Shown in pieces: positions 26,947 through 39,348 of a stretch of DNA of 64,000 nucleotides; positions within the stretch are counted from its first letter, which is position 1, and each line of letters begins with the position of its first letter. Origin of the DNA: Bdellovibrionales bacterium RIFCSPHIGHO2_01_FULL_40_29 (GTDB lineage: Bacteria > Bdellovibrionota > Bdellovibrionia > Bdellovibrionales > Bdellovibrionaceae). The position numbers were made by a program, and so were the translations under genes. Under the pieces are notes generated by a model. That model made no database searches and was not told the DNA's origin. It was given only the letters and a program-made list of their open reading frames with translations. Where the stretch lies: positions 124,001 to 188,000 of the forward strand of contig MEPU01000008.1 of NCBI GenBank assembly GCA_001771815.1. The letters are read 5' to 3'.

Positions 26947-27966
26947 TTAAAATTGTTTTAAAAAACGCACATCATTCTGTGGAAATAAACGAATATCATC
27001 CACGCCATACTTAATAATGGCCATCCGCTCGACACCAAATCCAAATGCAAATCCTTGCCATTTTGGATACTCCACTTTGGCAAATTCAAATACCTTTGGA
27101 TTGATCAAACCGCATCCACCAATTTCGATCCACCCCGTATGTTTACACAGTGAACAGCCTTTCCCTTTGCAAATAGGACAAGAGCAATCGACTTCCGCAG
27201 ACGGTTCTGTGAATGGAAAAAAACTAGGACGAAAACGAGTTTTTAATCCGGGACCAAAAAATTCTTTAACAAAAAAGGAAATGGTTCCCTTTAAGTCAGC
27301 CATGGAAACTTTCTCATCCACGCACATGCCTTCTATTTGATGAAAATTCGGCAAATGCGAAATGTCACTGTCGCATCGAAATACAGGCCCCGTGCCAATC
27401 ACACGCAAGGGTGGTTTTTCATTCTCTAACGAGTGAATCTGAATCGGAGACGTGTGCGTGCGAAGCACATGGGTTTCATCAATAAAGAATGTATCCTGCA
27501 TATCTCTGGCAGGATGATTCTTGGGAATATTGAGGGCTTCAAAATTATAATAATCTTTTTCAATCATGGGCCCCGTACGCAAAGCATATCCAAGGCGCGC
27601 CATAATTCCAAAAATTTCATTCGTCACTTTGTAAATAGGATGTTCACTTCCCAGTGGCTGAATATCTATGGGTAAAGTCAGATCCAACTTCTCACTTTCC
27701 ATTTGAGAGTTGATCTCTTTATTTTTAAGCTCATCTTCGGCCTTTGAATAAAAAGCTTCCAGCTCGGTTTTAACATCATTCACCAGTTTTCCGAATTGAG
27801 GTTTTTCCTCTTTGGGAAGTGTGGCCATTAATTTCATGGTTTCCGTTAAAGCTCCGCTTTTTCCTAAATACTGAACTTTAGCGTTGTAAAGTTCGGTGGA
27901 ATTCTGAGCCGCTTGAAAAGCTTTCAAAGCCTTTTGTTTTATATCGTTTAATTGAGTTTGTGACAT
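26947..27966 (-). CDS. pheS: Phenylalanyl-tRNA synthetase alpha subunit
   Basis: A 339-residue class II synthetase subunit. It has the N-terminal coiled coil, the [11 protein letters not shown] motif, [11 protein letters not shown] (motif 2 region), a [17 protein letters not shown] cysteine-rich segment and the motif 3 end [13 protein letters not shown]. It catalyses Phe activation. It is divergent from rsmG across a 63 bp gap, and no phenylalanine-rich leader peptide was found upstream. Confidence 0.97.
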
Positions 27967-31230: not shown

Positions 31231-32179
31231 AATATCCCTCGTCGGTCCACATTGGAAAACTTGGATTAAAGACGGACTTGTATTTTTTGTAAGTGTCAGT
31301 CTGATCCGGCCGGTATAACAAATGAATATTGCTTCCGGCATCCATAGTGACCAATGGTCCGTCTTTTTCAGATCTCCACAATTCTAAAATCTGTCGCAGA
31401 ACCTGTTGAGATCCCGCCGTCATATACATAAAAGGTGGTTTTGAGGTGTGAAATAATACATGCATATCCCAGAATTCATTCCAACAAATTTGAAAAGCCT
31501 CTTCCCAGTGCCCACGGCTTAAAGACTCAGACAAATCCTGCAATCTTTTTTCAGCTCTTTCAGGTCGATTTAAAAATAACTCTGAGGTTAGAACCAACTG
31601 ATGTGCCTGACTTGATGAAACAGCTTTAATGCTTTCATCACATAAAATCACTTGATGCTTAAGATTTGAAATCGGCAAAGCCACGGGCTCGATACTTTCT
31701 GAAGTCCACTTCACCCACGGTCCTGAAAAAGATCGACAGGAAGACCCCGATCCCAATTTGGAAATCAGTGCCAATTGCAATTCAGATTTTTGAATCGTTG
31801 TACTACAGGCATAAGCCGCTCGTGTCAGTGCCGCAAAGCTTGAAGCCGAACTGGCCAATCCACAATCTGACGGAAAATTATTTGCGGATTCAATATGGTA
31901 AAATCCAGACAGATTGAATTCTTTTTTTAATTTTGCAAAAAAACTTAAAAATTTCTTCTTGCCCGTTTCAGAAAGTTCAATAGGCCGAAGATCCGAACGA
32001 ACAAAAGGCCGCCATTGATCCTCAAGCAATTGAGGTCCCGGTTGCAATCGAACAAATGTTCGTAAATGATCCAATGTGTAGGACAGTGACGAATTGCATG
32101 GTCGATTATTCACAGGATCTGTTTTTCCCATATATTTGATCAATGCAATATTAGATGGAGCCGACGCTTCAATCCACAT
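31217..32179 (-). CDS. mvaD: Diphosphomevalonate decarboxylase
   Basis: A 320-residue GHMP-fold decarboxylase that makes isopentenyl diphosphate. It has APSNIALIKYMGK near the start, NFPSDCGLASSASSFAAL (the ATP loop) and TMDAGSNIHLLY with the conserved aspartate near the C-terminus. The ATG at 32179 is preceded by GGGAG at 5 bp; a GTG six bases earlier is less well placed. It overlaps the upstream kinase gene by 11 bp and the mevalonate kinase gene by 14 bp. Confidence 0.92.
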   Translation of the reverse strand: MWIEASAPSNIALIKYMGKTDPVNNRPCNSSLSYTLDHLRTFVRLQPGPQLLEDQWRPFVRSDLRPIELSETGKKKFLSFFAKLKKEFNLSGFYHIESANNFPSDCGLASSASSFAALTRAAYACSTTIQKSELQLALISKLGSGSSCRSFSGPWVKWTSESIEPVALPISNLKHQVILCDESIKAVSSSQAHQLVLTSELFLNRPERAEKRLQDLSESLSRGHWEEAFQICWNEFWDMHVLFHTSKPPFMYMTAGSQQVLRQILELWRSEKDGPLVTMDAGSNIHLLYRPDQTDTYKKYKSVFNPSFPMWTDEGYCAKS

Positions 32180-33044
32180 AGGCACTCCCTTGAACCTGAG
32201 ACAATTGATCTAAAATCCCCATAGCAATATCCTGTGTTGTCGCGCAAATATTTAAATTCAATTCTGAAATCTTATGTTTCACATGAGAAAAATTCTCCGT
32301 TCGACACATCACAAAAATCACATCCGCGCCCATGGCGCCACACGGTTTTGCAGAAAGAATTTCTGGGGATTTACGAAGGTTTAAGCTCAACTCTAAAGAT
32401 TCTTTCTGAATGAACTGCTCCCTCACTAAAAAATCAGACCACTCGTTTAATCCTCGACAGAAATCCTCGCCATTTTTTTTAAAATACAACTCCACAATGG
32501 GATTCGAAATTCTGGGAAAATGTCTGATTTGATCTAAATTCAATGTCGCTAAATGCTCGTGCGTTTTCACTTTCAATCCCGTTGAAACTATAAAAAACTC
32601 AAAATCTGAGAAATTCCAACCCAAAGATTGATAGACCTGAGACTCCTGATCAAAATGCAAGATGCGTCCAAAATACTGAATGGCCATATCCAAACCACTC
32701 ACTCGCGCTCCACATTTTTCACTTATACTTTGATATTGAAGTCGGATATCCGAAAAATTGGAATTGGCTTTTAACGTAGGAATTAAAACACTCAGGTACT
32801 CGGCTGTGGATTTACCGAATCCACCCCATCCAATATGATCTTGAAATTGAAAAGGGAATTTCCTTTTGGATTCACTCCAAAGTAATCCCGCAGGACTCTG
32901 CTCAGAAAATGGAAACGAAAAATTCTCTTGGGAAATTGTCTGCATCGAAAATCCAGGCGTCGTGGCGACTCCCAGAACAGACCCCTCAACCAATGCTGAA
33001 TACTCTCCGACCAGAAATGTTTTTCCAGGAATCACGAACGTCAT
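32169..33044 (-). CDS. GHMP kinase, probable phosphomevalonate kinase
   Basis: A 291-residue GHMP-superfamily protein. The N-terminus IPGKTFLVGEYSALVEG is as in phosphomevalonate kinases. The ATP loop reads GWGGFGKSTAEYL at 72-83 in place of the usual GLGSSAA, and the C-terminal motif is AKPCGAMGADVIFV at 232-245. SGLDMA carries a plausible catalytic aspartate. It lies between HMG-CoA reductase and the decarboxylase, and the phosphomevalonate step is the one otherwise missing, so I assign it by position. Its substrate specificity is not certain. Confidence 0.75.
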   Translation of the reverse strand: MTFVIPGKTFLVGEYSALVEGSVLGVATTPGFSMQTISQENFSFPFSEQSPAGLLWSESKRKFPFQFQDHIGWGGFGKSTAEYLSVLIPTLKANSNFSDIRLQYQSISEKCGARVSGLDMAIQYFGRILHFDQESQVYQSLGWNFSDFEFFIVSTGLKVKTHEHLATLNLDQIRHFPRISNPIVELYFKKNGEDFCRGLNEWSDFLVREQFIQKESLELSLNLRKSPEILSAKPCGAMGADVIFVMCRTENFSHVKHKISELNLNICATTQDIAMGILDQLSQVQGSAYVD

Positions 33045-34334
33045 TTAGTGATGGGTGCTATTTCTGAGGTCTTTAAGAACTTCAACAGCATTTGATAAAG
33101 AAATACGTTTTCTTAAAGCTAAAATTTCTTCTAATTTTTTAACCATTGTTGGCATTTCATTCTCAGTTGCCCCTGCACCCAGTGATAAATTCTTAATATG
33201 TAATTTCATGTGACCTTCGATAATTCCAACAGTTGTCAGAGCTCGTAAGGCACCTAAGTTTTGAACCAATCCAACAGCAGCAATAACTCGTGACAACTCA
33301 GTCGCTGATAGAACACCTAATATCTTCATCGAAATTTTTGCAGATGGGTGTAGCGCTGTCACACCGCCAACAGTTCCCACAACCAATGGAGCTTCTAGTG
33401 TTCCTATCAATCCGCTTGGTGTTTGACGCCATTTTGTGATCGAACGATATTGTCCACCTTGTGTCGCAAAAGCATGGACTCCGGCCTCGACCGCGCGCCA
33501 ATCATTACCTGTTGCAATGAGTATCGGATCAATCCCATTCAAAACACCCTTATTGTTGGTTGCTGCACGATAGGGGTCAAGTTCAGCAAAGCGCGAAGCC
33601 TCTTCAATTTTTAAAGCCAAATCAGGATCAATATTTTTAAGTTCGACTGTCGCGCGCGTCAGTTTTGTATCCACCAAATTAGATAGAATACACATATTGA
33701 CTGTTTCCCCCGTAAAAAGTTCTAGGGGCTCTTTTAAAAACTCACAAACTTGATTCATGATGTTGGCACCCATGGCATCACACGGATCCATATAGATATG
33801 AACAACGCCCATCTCAAAACCATCATCACGAACCAACCGTCGAACAGTTATGTTACGAACGCCACCGCCACGGGCAACTAAACCAAATGCCACTTCACGA
33901 TTAGCCAATTCGATCAAATAATTTTTCTGATGCAAGATTTGTGTTTCAAAGTTTCCAAAATTATTCACTTTAGCAAACTGAATTTGGCCAATTATTTCAG
34001 TTCCTAAAATTTCAGTTGTCACGGATCCGTTCTCTCGAACCCATTTTGCTGTTTTTGATGCCGCAGCAATAATGGACGTTTCCTCAACGGCCATTGGAAT
34101 TATAAAGTCTTTCCCATCAATTCGAAAATTAGTAGCAACTCCCATTGGCAATTGAAAGTAGCCAATCACATTCTCAACAAATTTTTCTGCCAAGCTGACA
34201 TCTTTTAATCCGCCTTTGCGCAAGTACTCAGCGTCCTCGATCGAGATCAAATCAACATCAGTTAATGTTTTCAAACGCTGTTCATAGTTTAGCTTTGAAA
34301 AACCTTTAAATAGGGCGTTTTTATTATTTTTCAT
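33045..34334 (-). CDS. mvaA: Hydroxymethylglutaryl-CoA reductase, class II (degradative-type fold)
   Basis: A 429-residue class II HMG-CoA reductase. It shows ENVIGYFQLPMGVATNF near the N-terminus, PMAVEETSIIAAAS with the catalytic glutamate, DAMGANIMNQ, the lysine in ATNNKGVLNGID, and GHMKLHIKNLS with the catalytic histidine. It produces mevalonate. The ATG at 34334 overlaps the fni stop as ATGA; the longer frame to 34349 would begin inside fni. No HMG-CoA synthase gene is in the window. Confidence 0.94.
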   Translation of the reverse strand: MKNNKNALFKGFSKLNYEQRLKTLTDVDLISIEDAEYLRKGGLKDVSLAEKFVENVIGYFQLPMGVATNFRIDGKDFIIPMAVEETSIIAAASKTAKWVRENGSVTTEILGTEIIGQIQFAKVNNFGNFETQILHQKNYLIELANREVAFGLVARGGGVRNITVRRLVRDDGFEMGVVHIYMDPCDAMGANIMNQVCEFLKEPLELFTGETVNMCILSNLVDTKLTRATVELKNIDPDLALKIEEASRFAELDPYRAATNNKGVLNGIDPILIATGNDWRAVEAGVHAFATQGGQYRSITKWRQTPSGLIGTLEAPLVVGTVGGVTALHPSAKISMKILGVLSATELSRVIAAVGLVQNLGALRALTTVGIIEGHMKLHIKNLSLGAGATENEMPTMVKKLEEILALRKRISLSNAVEVLKDLRNSTHH

Positions 34335-35362
34335 GCCTGATACTGCCAAACCTTTTTATGTAAAAATTCTTCAGTGCGTTTTATCCCAAGACAAAACATG
34401 GATACTTTGAGTTGATAATCAAAAACGTCCATGACCTTCATGACTGCTATTTCAGAATCAATCGCTGCCTTCATCAAGGGTTGAGCAATTCCAATGGCCC
34501 TTGCTCCTAAAGCCAAACATTTTGCTGTATCAACACCACTTCGTATTCCACCCGAAGCAAAAATAGGATGAAAGAGCACATACTCTTGACACTGCAAAAG
34601 GCAATCAATCGTACTGCTTCCCCAATCACTGAAAGCAGAAATAGCCATTTTCTCGGTAGAATCATCCTCATGTCTTAAGGCTTCAATATAACCCCAATGA
34701 GTTCCACCATGTCCTGCAACATCAACAGCATAAACTCCGATATCGATTAGTTTTTTAACGAGATCTGCTGAAATTCCAAAACCGACTTCCTTCACCAAAA
34801 TAGGAATTTTCGATTTTTTGACTAAGGTTTCAATGGATTTCAATCCATGAGTAAAATCCACATGACTATTTTTTTGAAAAACTTCTTGAAGTGGATTTAA
34901 GTGTATATACAAAGCCACCGCATCCAGATTTTCAGCCAGCTTCAATATGGCTTCGGCAGGATACTGAATCACTTCAAGTATACCCACGTTTGAAATAAAA
35001 CGGACATCTGGTGCCAACTTGCGAATTTCTTTCCATTCATGAGCCGCATCAGGATCTGTGAGCTCTTTTCGCTGAGATCCGATGGCCATCAGCCAATTCT
35101 TTTCTTGAGCTGCTAATGCCAATCGCAGATTGATAGATTTTGAATCTTCATGACCCGCTGTCATGGATGAAATAAAATGAGGTGTTGAAAATGTGAAATC
35201 AAATAACTGGGTTTGAAGATGGATATCGTTAAAACGAATTTCAGGCAGCGCATTGTGCGATAATTTTATTTTCGCAAACTGACTATCGGCCAATTGCTGA
35301 GATTGCTCGGATAATGCCAGGCGAATATGATCTTTCTTTCTTTGTTCGAAATCGTTTTTCAT
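34331..35362 (-). CDS. fni: Type 2 isopentenyl-diphosphate delta-isomerase
   Basis: A 343-residue FMN- and NADPH-dependent isomerase interconverting isopentenyl and dimethylallyl diphosphate. It shows RKKDHIRLAL near the start, FISSMTAGHEDS, AIGSQRKEL, YIHLNPLQEV and VKEVGFGIS, all characteristic of IDI-2. It is the first gene of the mevalonate operon. A strong terminator for the upstream rplT lies at 35390-35421, so the operon probably has its own promoter in the short gap that follows, which I could not pin down. Confidence 0.95.
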   Translation of the reverse strand: MKNDFEQRKKDHIRLALSEQSQQLADSQFAKIKLSHNALPEIRFNDIHLQTQLFDFTFSTPHFISSMTAGHEDSKSINLRLALAAQEKNWLMAIGSQRKELTDPDAAHEWKEIRKLAPDVRFISNVGILEVIQYPAEAILKLAENLDAVALYIHLNPLQEVFQKNSHVDFTHGLKSIETLVKKSKIPILVKEVGFGISADLVKKLIDIGVYAVDVAGHGGTHWGYIEALRHEDDSTEKMAISAFSDWGSSTIDCLLQCQEYVLFHPIFASGGIRSGVDTAKCLALGARAIGIAQPLMKAAIDSEIAVMKVMDVFDYQLKVSMFCLGIKRTEEFLHKKVWQYQA

Positions 35363-35445: not shown

Positions 35446-35793
35446 TTATTTAATAGCGTGTTGGCAAAGTGATGTGAATGCTGTTGCATCCGTAATTGCC
35501 AAGTCTGCTAATACTTTACGATCCAACTCGATACCGGCTTTAATTAAACCACCGATTAAACGTGAGTAAGTCGTGCCATTCATGCGTGCTGCTGCATTAA
35601 TTCGTTGAGTCCACAAAGCACGGAAAGAACGTTTTTTCATTTTTCTGTGTTTGTAGGCATACGCCATACCACGGTCATTTTTTTCAACCGCGTGAGTGTA
35701 TGAACGCGAACCCGCTGAGTAGTAACCTTTAGCTCTTTTTAAAACTTTTTTGTGGCGACGACGATTAGTCATCCCCGATTTTACACGTGCCAT
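35446..35793 (-). CDS. rplT: 50S ribosomal protein L20
   Basis: A 115-residue L20 of normal size with the basic N-terminal tail ([23 protein letters not shown]) and [23 protein letters not shown] precedes the ATG. It lies 10 bp after rpmI. L20 represses its own operon in several bacteria; a hairpin ahead of rpmI could serve this, but I cannot recognise the L20 operator. Confidence 0.98.
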
Positions 35794-35803
35794 CGTTTAC
35801 TCC

Positions 35804-35989
35804 TTAAAAGCCGAATTGGCGCTTCACTTGAAGCATGTTTGCATCAGCGACATAAATAACTTGTCCCAGATGACGTTTAGTTTTCGAACTCATGTGAGAG
35901 TTCAAGTGGCGCATTTTTGTTTGTTTGCGTTTCACTTTTCCGCTTTTAAGAACGCGCATGCGTTTCTTTGCACCAGAGTGCGTTTTCAT
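35804..35989 (-). CDS. rpmI: 50S ribosomal protein L35
   Basis: A 61-residue basic protein with MKTHSGAKKRMRVLKSGKVKR, the L35 signature, slightly shorter than the usual 64-66 residues. A GGAGGAAGG ribosome site precedes the ATG. It has its own promoter candidate at 36065-36093 because the lipoprotein gene separates it from infC. Confidence 0.97.
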   Translation of the reverse strand: MKTHSGAKKRMRVLKSGKVKRKQTKMRHLNSHMSSKTKRHLGQVIYVADANMLQVKRQFGF

Positions 35990-36605: not shown

Positions 36606-37265
36606 TTATTCCTCATCCGGCTCATTGTCCTTCATAGGTTCGAGCACTTCTTCTTTTTTAGAAGGGTGAAGTTTCATGTATTCTTTTACTTTTGCTGGAT
36701 CCGGAGCAATCAAGGTAAAAAGATTTTTACCTTCGGTCTTTGGCGGCGCCTCCACCAAGGCAATATCTTTAACGTAATCAATGGCCTTACGAATAACAGC
36801 AACACCGGCTTCTTGGTGTGCCATCTCTCGACCCATAAAGCGAAGATTAATTTTAACTTTGTCGCCATCCAAAATAAAGCGGCGGGCGTGTTTCATCTTG
36901 GTTTCAAAATCATGTTGATCCGTTCGCGGACGCATTTGAATTTCTTTGATTGTCACGATCACTTGATTTTTTCTGGATGCAGCGGCTTTCTTTTTCTCTT
37001 CGTATTTGTATTTGCCGTAGTCCATGATTTTACAAGTGGGCGGCTGAGCTGTCGGAGCAATCTCGATCAAATCAAGACCTTTATCTTCGGCCATGCGAAT
37101 GCCTTCAGGTACGGTCATCACTCCAACCATCGTCCCATTTTCATCAATCAGACGAATTTGTTGAGCGCGAATTTCGCGGTTGACGCGAAGTCCGTCTTTT
37201 TCTCGTTTTTTATCGCGATCGAATTTTCCTGGCGGGCGTGGTGGGCGTGGTACAATGGCGTTAAT
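36606..37265 (-). CDS. infC: Translation initiation factor IF-3, AUU start
   Basis: A 219-residue IF3. The N-terminal domain (RVNREIRAQQIRLIDENG, GVMTVPEGIRMAEDKGLDLIEI), the linker rich in lysine and the C-terminal domain (VTIKEIQMRPRTDQHDFETKMKHARRFI) are complete, with an acidic tail. The start is ATT at 37265-37263, six bases after GGAGG and overlapping the thrS stop; the first in-frame ATG would cut 45 residues of conserved N-terminus. AUU starts let IF3 limit its own translation, as established in E. coli. A proline/arginine-rich N-terminal extension (VPRPPRPPG) is unusual. Confidence 0.95.
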   Translation of the reverse strand: MNAIVPRPPRPPGKFDRDKKREKDGLRVNREIRAQQIRLIDENGTMVGVMTVPEGIRMAEDKGLDLIEIAPTAQPPTCKIMDYGKYKYEEKKKAAASRKNQVIVTIKEIQMRPRTDQHDFETKMKHARRFILDGDKVKINLRFMGREMAHQEAGVAVIRKAIDYVKDIALVEAPPKTEGKNLFTLIAPDPAKVKEYMKLHPSKKEEVLEPMKDNEPDEE

Positions 37266-39207
37266 GGCTAACCTCCGTAGTTAGTTTTCGTGTTTGAATT
37301 GTTTCTTGAATCATATGAAATGCTTTTTCCCAAGCGATATTGTTGTGAATTGTTCCATCACGCAATCGAATTGAAACAGTTTTTGCCTCGGCTTCTTTAT
37401 CACCGACAATCAACATAAATGGAACTTTTCGAAGCTGGGCTTCGCGAATTTTAAAATTAAGTTTTTCACTGCGACGATCAAACTCAACACGAATGGTCGC
37501 GTCTTTCATTTGTTTTTCCATCATTTCACAGAACTCATTCACCCGATCTGTCACATTTAAAATCATCACCTGAGTTGGCATCAGCCATGTCGGCATATTC
37601 CCGATGGTGTGTTCCAAGTAGACACTGATGAATCGCTCCAAAGATCCCAATACAGCCCGGTGAAGCATCACGGGACGATGCTCTTTATTGTCCTCGCCTG
37701 TGTATTTTAAATCGAATGCCTCAGGCAAATTAGGATCAACCTGAATAGTTCCTGTTTGCCAAGAACGCCCGATCGCATCAATGAAATGCATTTCTAATTT
37801 TGGACCATAGAATGCGCCCTCACCCGGAGAAATCGCATATTCCAAACCCATCTCGGTGATGGCCTCGGCCAAAGCCTTTTCAGCAAAATCCCAATACTCC
37901 TCGGAACCCATTCGTTTTTCAGGACGAGTTGCCAAAAATAATTTGTAATTGGGCATACCTAAAGTTTGGTAAATGGTATTGAGCAAATCAATAAACTTTG
38001 AAATTTCAGATTTCAATTGATCTAGAGTACAAAAAATATGTGCATCATCCTGACAAAAAGTTCGAACGCGCGACAAACCATGCAGTGAACCTGATTTTTC
38101 ATAGCGATGAAGTCGTCCAAAATCAGCCATTCGCAGTGGTAATTCACGGTACGAATGCTTCTCTGATCCAAACAGCAAGCAATGACTTGGGCAGTTCATG
38201 GGTTTTAATCCAAATTCACGCTCGTCTGGATTTGTAAAATACATATTTTCTTTGTAATTTCCGTAATGTCCCGAAGTTTTAAAAAGTTCAATATCAAAAA
38301 TCTGTGGTGTGATAACCTCTTGGTAATCAAATTTTTGATAAAGTTCACGAATATATTTCGTCAATTCATTGTAAATAATTGTTCCACGGCCCGTAAAAAA
38401 TGGTGATGCCGGTGCCAAATCATGAAACATAAAGAGGCCCAAATCTTTTCCCAATTTACGATGATCACGTTTTTTAGCTTCTTCAAGCTGCACAATATAG
38501 GCGTCTAATTCTTTTTTATCTTGAAAAGCTGTCGCGTAAATTCGCTGAAGCATTGGATTTTTTTCGTCACCACGCCAATAAGCACCAGCAACAGACATCA
38601 GCTTGACCGCTTTGATCTGCCCCGTACTTTGCACATGGGGACCGCGACAAAGATCAAACCAGTCCCCTTGATGATAAATACCTACAACGGTTTCACCTTT
38701 TTTGGCTAAATCTTCGATCAACTCGACCTTAAAGCGCTCATTCATTTTCTTGAAAACTTCGATCGCTTTTTCAATTGGCCAGTTTTCACGAATTAACGGA
38801 AGATCTTTTTTAACGATCTCGTCCATCTTTTTTTCAATTTTTTCAAAATGCTCTTCCGTAAAATTAAACGGAGAATCGAAATCATAAAAGAAACCATTAT
38901 CGATCACTGGACCAATCGTCACTTTGACTTCTGGCCAAATCTGCTGAACAGCTTGAGCCATCAGATGAGCCGCCGAATGCCGAATCACTTCAACAGCTTG
39001 CGGTGATTTCGTGGTGATCAGCTCTAACAGTGTTCCATCTTTTAATGGCTGACGAAAATCAATGACTTCCGCACCCCCATTTATTTTAGCACCCAAAGTA
39101 TCTTTGGCTAAACGAGGGCCTATGCTGGCTGCTACTTCAAGCGCAGTGGGTTCATGATCGAATGTGCGTACCGATTTATCCGGCAGTATTATATTTATTT
39201 GTGACAT
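37261..39207 (-). CDS. thrS: Threonyl-tRNA synthetase
   Basis: A 648-residue class II synthetase of normal length. In order: TGS domain, the second editing-type domain with HSAAHLMAQAVQQ, the catalytic core (GRGTIIYNEL, MNCPSHC with a zinc-binding cysteine, LRMADFGRLHRYE) and the anticodon-binding domain. The ATG at 39207 has no clear Shine-Dalgarno. A threonine-rich short reading frame ends 20 bp upstream, which suggests translational control by threonine supply. Its last codon and stop overlap the infC AUU start. Confidence 0.97.
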   Translation of the reverse strand: MSQINIILPDKSVRTFDHEPTALEVAASIGPRLAKDTLGAKINGGAEVIDFRQPLKDGTLLELITTKSPQAVEVIRHSAAHLMAQAVQQIWPEVKVTIGPVIDNGFFYDFDSPFNFTEEHFEKIEKKMDEIVKKDLPLIRENWPIEKAIEVFKKMNERFKVELIEDLAKKGETVVGIYHQGDWFDLCRGPHVQSTGQIKAVKLMSVAGAYWRGDEKNPMLQRIYATAFQDKKELDAYIVQLEEAKKRDHRKLGKDLGLFMFHDLAPASPFFTGRGTIIYNELTKYIRELYQKFDYQEVITPQIFDIELFKTSGHYGNYKENMYFTNPDEREFGLKPMNCPSHCLLFGSEKHSYRELPLRMADFGRLHRYEKSGSLHGLSRVRTFCQDDAHIFCTLDQLKSEISKFIDLLNTIYQTLGMPNYKLFLATRPEKRMGSEEYWDFAEKALAEAITEMGLEYAISPGEGAFYGPKLEMHFIDAIGRSWQTGTIQVDPNLPEAFDLKYTGEDNKEHRPVMLHRAVLGSLERFISVYLEHTIGNMPTWLMPTQVMILNVTDRVNEFCEMMEKQMKDATIRVEFDRRSEKLNFKIREAQLRKVPFMLIVGDKEAEAKTVSIRLRDGTIHNNIAWEKAFHMIQETIQTRKLTTEVSH

Positions 39208-39227
39208 AGTTTTTTAAAAGGTCATGT

Positions 39228-39296
39228 TTAACATGCTACGGTGGTGGTAACAGTGATTGTGGAAACGGTGTTGAACGAAAGTGTTCTTAAAGACAT
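39228..39296 (-). CDS. Putative threonine-rich leader peptide of thrS
   Basis: A 22-codon frame from ATG 39296 to TAA 39228. Seven codons are threonine: residues 5, 10, 13, 15 and 17-19, the last three being consecutive ACC. AGGA lies 2 bp before the ATG, close but usable. The stop lies in the loop of a short palindrome CATGT-TAA-ACATG and 20 bp before the thrS ATG, which itself lacks a Shine-Dalgarno. Leader peptides rich in the cognate amino acid control thr and phe operons in E. coli; here no U-run terminator follows, so translational coupling or occlusion is likelier than transcription attenuation. Codon chance cannot be excluded. Confidence 0.55.
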   Translation of the reverse strand: MSLRTLSFNTVSTITVTTTVAC

Positions 39297-39348
39297 AGTC
39301 CTAATCTACTCAAATTATTCACCAGAATCCACAAAATTGTTTTGAATT

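Follow-up and report, generated by a model that had tools for sequence, protein, structure and literature searches.

Does a threonine-rich micro-ORF that stops just short of a threonyl-tRNA synthetase gene control that gene, and if so, in what way? This question is raised by the thrS locus of a 64,000-nucleotide stretch of Bdellovibrionales DNA, analyzed here at its full length and called the window, from a genome of 2.9 Mb for which the closest relatives with names are MAGs of Pseudobdellovibrio and Bdellovibrio. The thrS product carries the TGS, SAD, catalytic, and anticodon-binding domains of ThrRS, and the gene order after thrS is infC, rpmI, and rplT:

39228–39296, minus strand: threonine leader micro-ORF of 22 codons, MSLRTLSFNTVSTITVTTTVAC*, with 7 Thr (asterisk, stop)
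39240–39248, minus strand: ACC ACC ACC run, leader codons 17–19
37261–39207, minus strand: thrS, threonyl-tRNA synthetase, 648 aa, no Shine-Dalgarno (SD) sequence
36606–37256, minus strand: infC, coding for IF3, in the same gene run, probable AUU start at 37256
35804–35989, minus strand: rpmI, ribosomal protein L35 (read from sequence)
35446–35793, minus strand: rplT, ribosomal protein L20

No ATG lies near the start of infC; its frame opens with ATT (37254–37256, minus strand) 4 nt past the thrS stop and is preceded by GGAGG, a pattern pointing to an AUU start as in E. coli infC. After rplT (32169–35362, minus strand), there are genes that read by eye like those for mevalonate kinase, HMG-CoA reductase, and type 2 isopentenyl-diphosphate isomerase. 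Some relatives contain, besides thrS, a shorter ThrRS-like gene (about 420 aa, 35–38% identity to residues 245–640; genome G018, C1:1885057–1886265, and also G017, G019, G020, G025, G026, G042, and G047), and none was found in the genome of the window. In phylum mates outside Bdellovibrionales, most ThrRS match only from residue ~60–75 and their open frames are close to 600 aa, as if they lacked an N-terminal TGS domain.

The first-pass annotation had described a 22-codon frame running on the minus strand from 39296 to 39228, with seven Thr codons, a triple ACC, and a stop 20 nt from thrS, and each of these points was re-derived from the sequence: the leader ATG occupies 39296–39294 and its TAA 39230–39228, and 20 nt separate the stop from the thrS ATG (39207). 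The claim that thrS has no SD of its own was upheld as well; an SD-like site precedes 26 of the 55 large genes in the window. Among the 575 ATG-to-stop ORFs of 12–45 codons in the window, the leader is the only one with at least five Thr and at least 27% Thr, and the chance of at least 7 Thr in 21 codons is p = 9e-5 at the window rate of 5.5% Thr. No terminator-like site was found in the leader–thrS region, in agreement with the earlier statement that no poly-U terminator follows the leader. Since a terminator is absent, transcription attenuation was rejected and, as had been proposed, control would be exerted on translation rather than on transcription. A scan of the window against Rfam at gathering thresholds gave no match, nor did that of five relatives, and known riboswitch or leader families were rejected on this basis.

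The case for the leader is decided by comparison rather than by statistics within the window. The comparison drew on the thrS upstream regions of relatives (85 distinct, 72 after dereplication), using thrS starts chosen by rule. In the ten codons ending at the stop near the thrS start, the mean was 1.88 Thr, vs. 0.68 in dinucleotide shuffles (z = 14.3, n = 72), in regions that are related by descent, a non-independence lessened by dereplication and by their near-unalignability. The next-ranked residues in the same test were Met, Ser, and Val (z = 5.2, 4.1, and 3.8), and none except Thr exceeded 5.2. Leaders of the family include MLFIITTTTF*, MKLSTFVQIMTTTTTSF*, MNMFSFSNSTNTFLTTTMTF*, and ..RTVTTTSTLS*. 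Frame conservation in close relatives, on which the first-pass annotation had made its reading depend, was found in the closest one (L128), whose leader contains 10 Thr and stays in frame despite indels of 16+2 and 9 nt. The spacing from leader ATG to thrS ATG equals 2 modulo 3 in 22 of 23 genomes of the Bdellovibrio-type genus (g6), over a range of 44–137 nt. At least three Thr in the ten codons were present in 23 of 72 regions inside Bdellovibrionales, in 0 of 19 phylum mates outside the order, and in 3 of 45 remoter thrS upstreams (four in L080, three in L083 and L100). No leader comparable to that of Bdellovibrionales was found in these 19 phylum mates and 45 remoter upstreams, and many thrS genes outside the order have a clear SD, such as GAGGAGCCC-ATG in Holophagaceae. 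Not all of Bdellovibrionales conform: in some members Thr codons are scarce or absent, or there is no leader.

The position of the Thr codons was likewise characteristic, mostly 2–6 codons ahead of the leader stop. In leaders chosen by promoter spacing, and thus blind to Thr, this residue occupied 44% of codons −3, 35% of codons −5, and 30% of codons −6, vs. 2–4% in the other two frames. The final codon was Ser in 42% and often Phe, with Thr preferring position −3. Leader length and sequence vary widely, and Thr near the stop is the sole shared motif. ACC was raised in leaders relative to thrS (p = 3e-6), and the share of ACC+ACT vs. ACA+ACG was the same in both (51%, summed by hand), so the codon choice does not point to a preferred tRNA. 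Cognate leaders were not seen at other synthetase genes, identified by PF00133, PF01409, and PF00587. Based on these comparisons, the Thr leader of thrS can be regarded as real and conserved. A chance ORF was ruled out by the Thr enrichment (z = 14.3), the frame-specific Thr positions, the rarity of such an ORF in the window, and the 2-modulo-3 spacing in g6. A CA-rich enhancer was rejected because the enrichment does not extend to Gln and His codons and the Thr signal is confined to one frame.

Upstream of the leader, two promoter-like boxes were identified:

39326–39331, minus strand: weak −35-like box TGGATT, 17-nt spacer to the −10, weaker than the TTGAC/TTGAA of most relatives
39303–39308, minus strand: −10-like box TAGATT, 6 nt before the leader ATG; the transcript would start at or beside this ATG

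In 49 Thr-bearing leaders, picked by Thr content, a TTGAC/TTGAA box lies exactly 36 nt 5' of the leader ATG in 23 and at 34–40 nt in 36, and almost none lies elsewhere; this selection and that by promoter spacing are each independent of the quantity then measured. A box at 36 nt places the transcript start at or beside the leader ATG, and the leader ORF of Bdellovibrionales is probably leaderless. The window has just a weak version of this promoter (TGGATT-17-TAGATT-6-ATG), and L128 has TAGCTT (−35) and TACATT (−10) at the aligned places. Such leaderless-type spacing seems to be used elsewhere in the lineage: pheS (26947–27966 of the window, minus strand) is preceded by TTGAAA-17-GATACT-6-ATG, with a TTGAA box 35–37 nt upstream of the start codon in each of the six genomes tested (L188–L193), and itself appears leaderless. 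In some congeners (L033, L004/L032, L005), the thrS −35 TTGAAA lies within the loop of a terminator-like hairpin of the preceding operon, for example CCCCTTGAAATGGGGGCTTTTTTTT. A promoter-like pair, TTAAAA-18-TATAAT, also spans the thrS start (39188–39217, minus strand), and its transcript would begin inside thrS. The main text of a Bdellovibrio TSS study (PMC3627812) mentions neither thrS nor leaderless mRNAs.

Two further elements lie at the junction between the leader and thrS:

39223–39235, minus strand: weak imperfect palindrome CATGT-TAA-ACATG, its loop formed by the leader stop
39214–39234, minus strand: relay micro-ORF MLNMTF*, overlapping the leader stop and ending 6 nt before thrS

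The leader stop lies within −4 to +6 of the thrS AUG in 33 of 52 dereplicated leaders, 18 of them with an exact TAATG. Gaps span −4 to 66 nt across the family, and the larger ones are bridged in 15 of 19 cases by one or two micro-ORFs (of at least 3 codons) that begin at or close to the leader stop and run up to thrS, vs. 1.6 expected when the gap alone is shuffled. In L091, the passage takes three steps (TTTTTSF*-TAATG-MSFVLSLSYKF*-TAATG-MLQFYKQKLNI*-ATGA-thrS); in L128, no qualifying relay ORF was found, only MNF*. The earlier expectation that frame, Thr codons, and stop-to-ATG distance would be kept in relatives while the rest drifts was thus borne out for the frame, the Thr codons, and the closeness of stop and AUG, but not for the exact 20-nt gap. 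Coupling has been conserved instead, by TAATG overlap or by micro-ORF relay. Of the 52 leader-bearing thrS genes, 2 have an SD-like site in front. Leader and thrS show the features of a translationally coupled pair, with overlapping or adjoining stop and start codons and an SD-less second gene, in the window by way of MLNMTF*. Because thrS is SD-less, it would depend mainly on ribosomes delivered by the leader, and we infer that these provide most of its translation.

The reading that we consider probable is that a leaderless micro-ORF ending in Thr codons feeds thrS by coupled re-initiation, so that charged tRNA-Thr gates thrS. The thrS mRNA would start at, or a few bases from, the leader AUG; ribosomes would enter at this 5'-terminal AUG, translate through the Thr codons, and terminate at a stop lying on or beside a further start codon. 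There they would re-initiate, either on thrS itself or first on one or two intervening micro-ORFs. When charged tRNA-Thr is scarce, the ribosome would stall with its front on the coupling junction, and thrS translation would be gated. In 18 of 56 leaders, exactly 11 nt separate the last Thr codon from the thrS AUG (median, 15.5 nt). Since a ribosome extends about 12 nt past the codon being read (PMC4833913), a waiting ribosome would sit on the junction in most of the family. In the window, where this distance is 35 nt, its front would reach the start of the relay ORF. Given Thr codons mostly 2–6 codons before the stop, a stalled ribosome would occupy the coupling junction and would not expose a start farther away. 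The signatures of conservation and coupling are strong at the sequence level, from which we also infer leaderless initiation, re-initiation, and stalling. For the window, we rejected a stalling-induced frameshift into thrS: the open stretch of the thrS frame has just 650 codons vs. the 648 of the gene.

The geometry favors a lower thrS output under severe threonine starvation, to which we give about an even chance; homeostatic induction is doubtful, and the absence of any response is unlikely. Positive feedback on ThrRS is the weak point of the gate: to our knowledge, known synthetase controls act by negative feedback. This general rule speaks for classical translation attenuation, in which a structure would hide the thrS start and a ribosome waiting on hungry Thr codons would open it, raising thrS expression. 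In Bdellovibrio and near relatives, a hairpin does end 10–14 nt, mostly 11, before the thrS AUG in 17 of 20 cases (z = 10.5 vs. shuffles), its sequence changing (GGTCGT..ACGACC, GCTCG..CGAGC, CTCCGG..CCGGAG), and it overlaps or directly precedes the Thr codons, where a stalled ribosome would open it. However, the other clades as a group show no hairpin enrichment (z = −1.0), the window thrS start is hardly structured (opening energy, 1.6 kcal/mol), and the last Thr codon is generally so near the AUG (median, 15.5 nt) that a stalled ribosome would itself cover the start. The first-pass annotation had placed the leader stop in the loop of a palindrome; this stands insofar as TAA forms the 3-nt loop of a 5-bp palindrome, but the CATGT/ACATG hairpin is weak and absent from the predicted minimum-energy fold. 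The window and some congeners share such a short palindrome around the leader stop, ending 13–15 nt before the AUG. With the start open in the window and no hairpin in other clades, a hide-and-uncover attenuator is not the general design, and we consider classical attenuation rather unlikely; our guess is that the Bdellovibrio hairpin keeps independent ribosomes out of thrS. The Bdellovibrio hairpin stands just 5' of the AUG, roughly where the operator hairpins of E. coli thrS lie, so ThrRS might also bind the leader RNA as a tRNA mimic and repress its own translation. This is scarcely to be entertained, since several of these hairpins are short-looped by eye (GCTCG-TTCA-CGAGC) and contain no 7-nt anticodon-like loop, most clades lack enrichment, no Rfam match was found, and the Thr codons would be left unexplained. 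In the first 30 nt of g6 leaders (L012, L119, and others), a conserved inverted repeat GTGATG ... CATCAC was also observed, with a spacing of 16 or 19 nt; as no compensating changes were seen, we do not claim it as an RNA structure.

Two further alternatives dispense with sensing of charged tRNA-Thr. The leader could be a mere ribosome loader, with constitutive leaderless entry feeding an SD-less thrS through coupling; no general features of the family are stronger than the signatures of coupling and of leaderless entry, and leader genes have been argued often to raise translation through re-initiation (PMC4833913). We regard this as improbable because it does not explain a Thr pattern that is specific, stop-proximal, and confined to one frame, and because the other synthetase upstreams tested have no such micro-ORF. 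The preference for Ser (42%) or Phe as last codon and for Thr at −3 would also fit a peptide end, Thr-x-Phe/Ser-stop, that slows termination as an arrest motif and sets re-initiation independently of Thr-tRNA. Leaders so diverse in length and sequence, with nothing in common beyond Thr near the stop, make such a motif very improbable.

If the gated-relay model is correct, thrS would have a further mode of control beside the E. coli operator and the T-box, and sensing by leaderless cognate-codon ORFs would be known from a second, unrelated phylum, with conservation here throughout an order. With its conserved micro-ORF relay, the family offers a natural system for asking whether ribosomes from leaderless starts re-initiate downstream, and what a hungry codon does at a coupling junction. 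In predators, the leader may tie prey-derived threonine to the making of the translation machinery. A search for homoserine dehydrogenase found none in 8 genomes, against 14 of 14 control genomes that have it, so a leader of threonine biosynthesis was discarded. A metabolic model of B. bacteriovorus requires external threonine (PMC7529429), and on both grounds threonine would come from prey. As a tentative extension, the arrangement might therefore be a supply gate and not a feedback attenuator, in which the relay would reach thrS-infC-rpmI-rplT only with Thr-tRNA at hand in threonine-auxotrophic predators. As infC, rpmI, and rplT follow thrS, this gate may serve more than ThrRS, and since IF3 is reported to disfavor leaderless starts (PMC9031893), IF3, from infC with its probable AUU start, would also set it. 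Lack of its own amino acid would then turn a synthetase operon off, not on.

Among known systems, the leader peptides of E. coli thrL and pheL act in transcription attenuation, pheL serving a synthetase operon. They share with the thrS leader a cognate-codon ORF; unlike them, the latter has no terminator or antiterminator, is putatively leaderless, and is coupled to its gene, and its stop, just 20 nt from thrS in the window, is followed by no Rho-independent terminator. In E. coli thrS, ThrRS binds an operator on its own mRNA. Gene and proposed level of control, translation, are the same here, but the E. coli-type operator has tRNA-Thr-like hairpins before an SD-led AUG, whereas the sequence of Bdellovibrionales thrS reads as a translated Thr ORF with an SD-like site in 2 of 52 cases, no general hairpin, and no tRNA-like loops seen. 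Covariance models found no T-box upstream of thrS in the window or in five relatives. A literature search found no thrS leader peptide. Short leaders described by Korolev et al. (2016; PMC4833913), in whose text a term search found neither Bdellovibrio nor Deltaproteobacteria, feed re-initiation when the distance from leader stop to gene start is short, and stalling at regulatory codons lowers it; unlike the thrS leader, they mostly lack cognate codons. Leaderless polycysteine short ORFs of mycobacteria (Canestrari et al., 2020, as related in PMC9031893 and PMC13236596; early candidates in PMC4633059) are, in these accounts, proposed to act through a stalled ribosome that opens a structure hiding the downstream start. 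As far as they are described there, these ORFs and the thrS leader share a leaderless first ORF, cognate codons near its end, and the cognate gene or operon directly downstream. They differ in amino acid (Cys, not Thr), in the synthetase gene, in phylum, and in the coupling by TAATG or micro-ORF relay. A structure sequestering the ribosome-binding site was not found in the window (1.6 kcal/mol), a hairpin being confined to Bdellovibrio and near relatives, and for this reason we do not file the thrS leader as a polycysteine-type member. By analogy, and within what those accounts relate, the thrS leader would nevertheless work on a similar principle, with the mycobacterial polycysteine ORFs as its nearest precedent.
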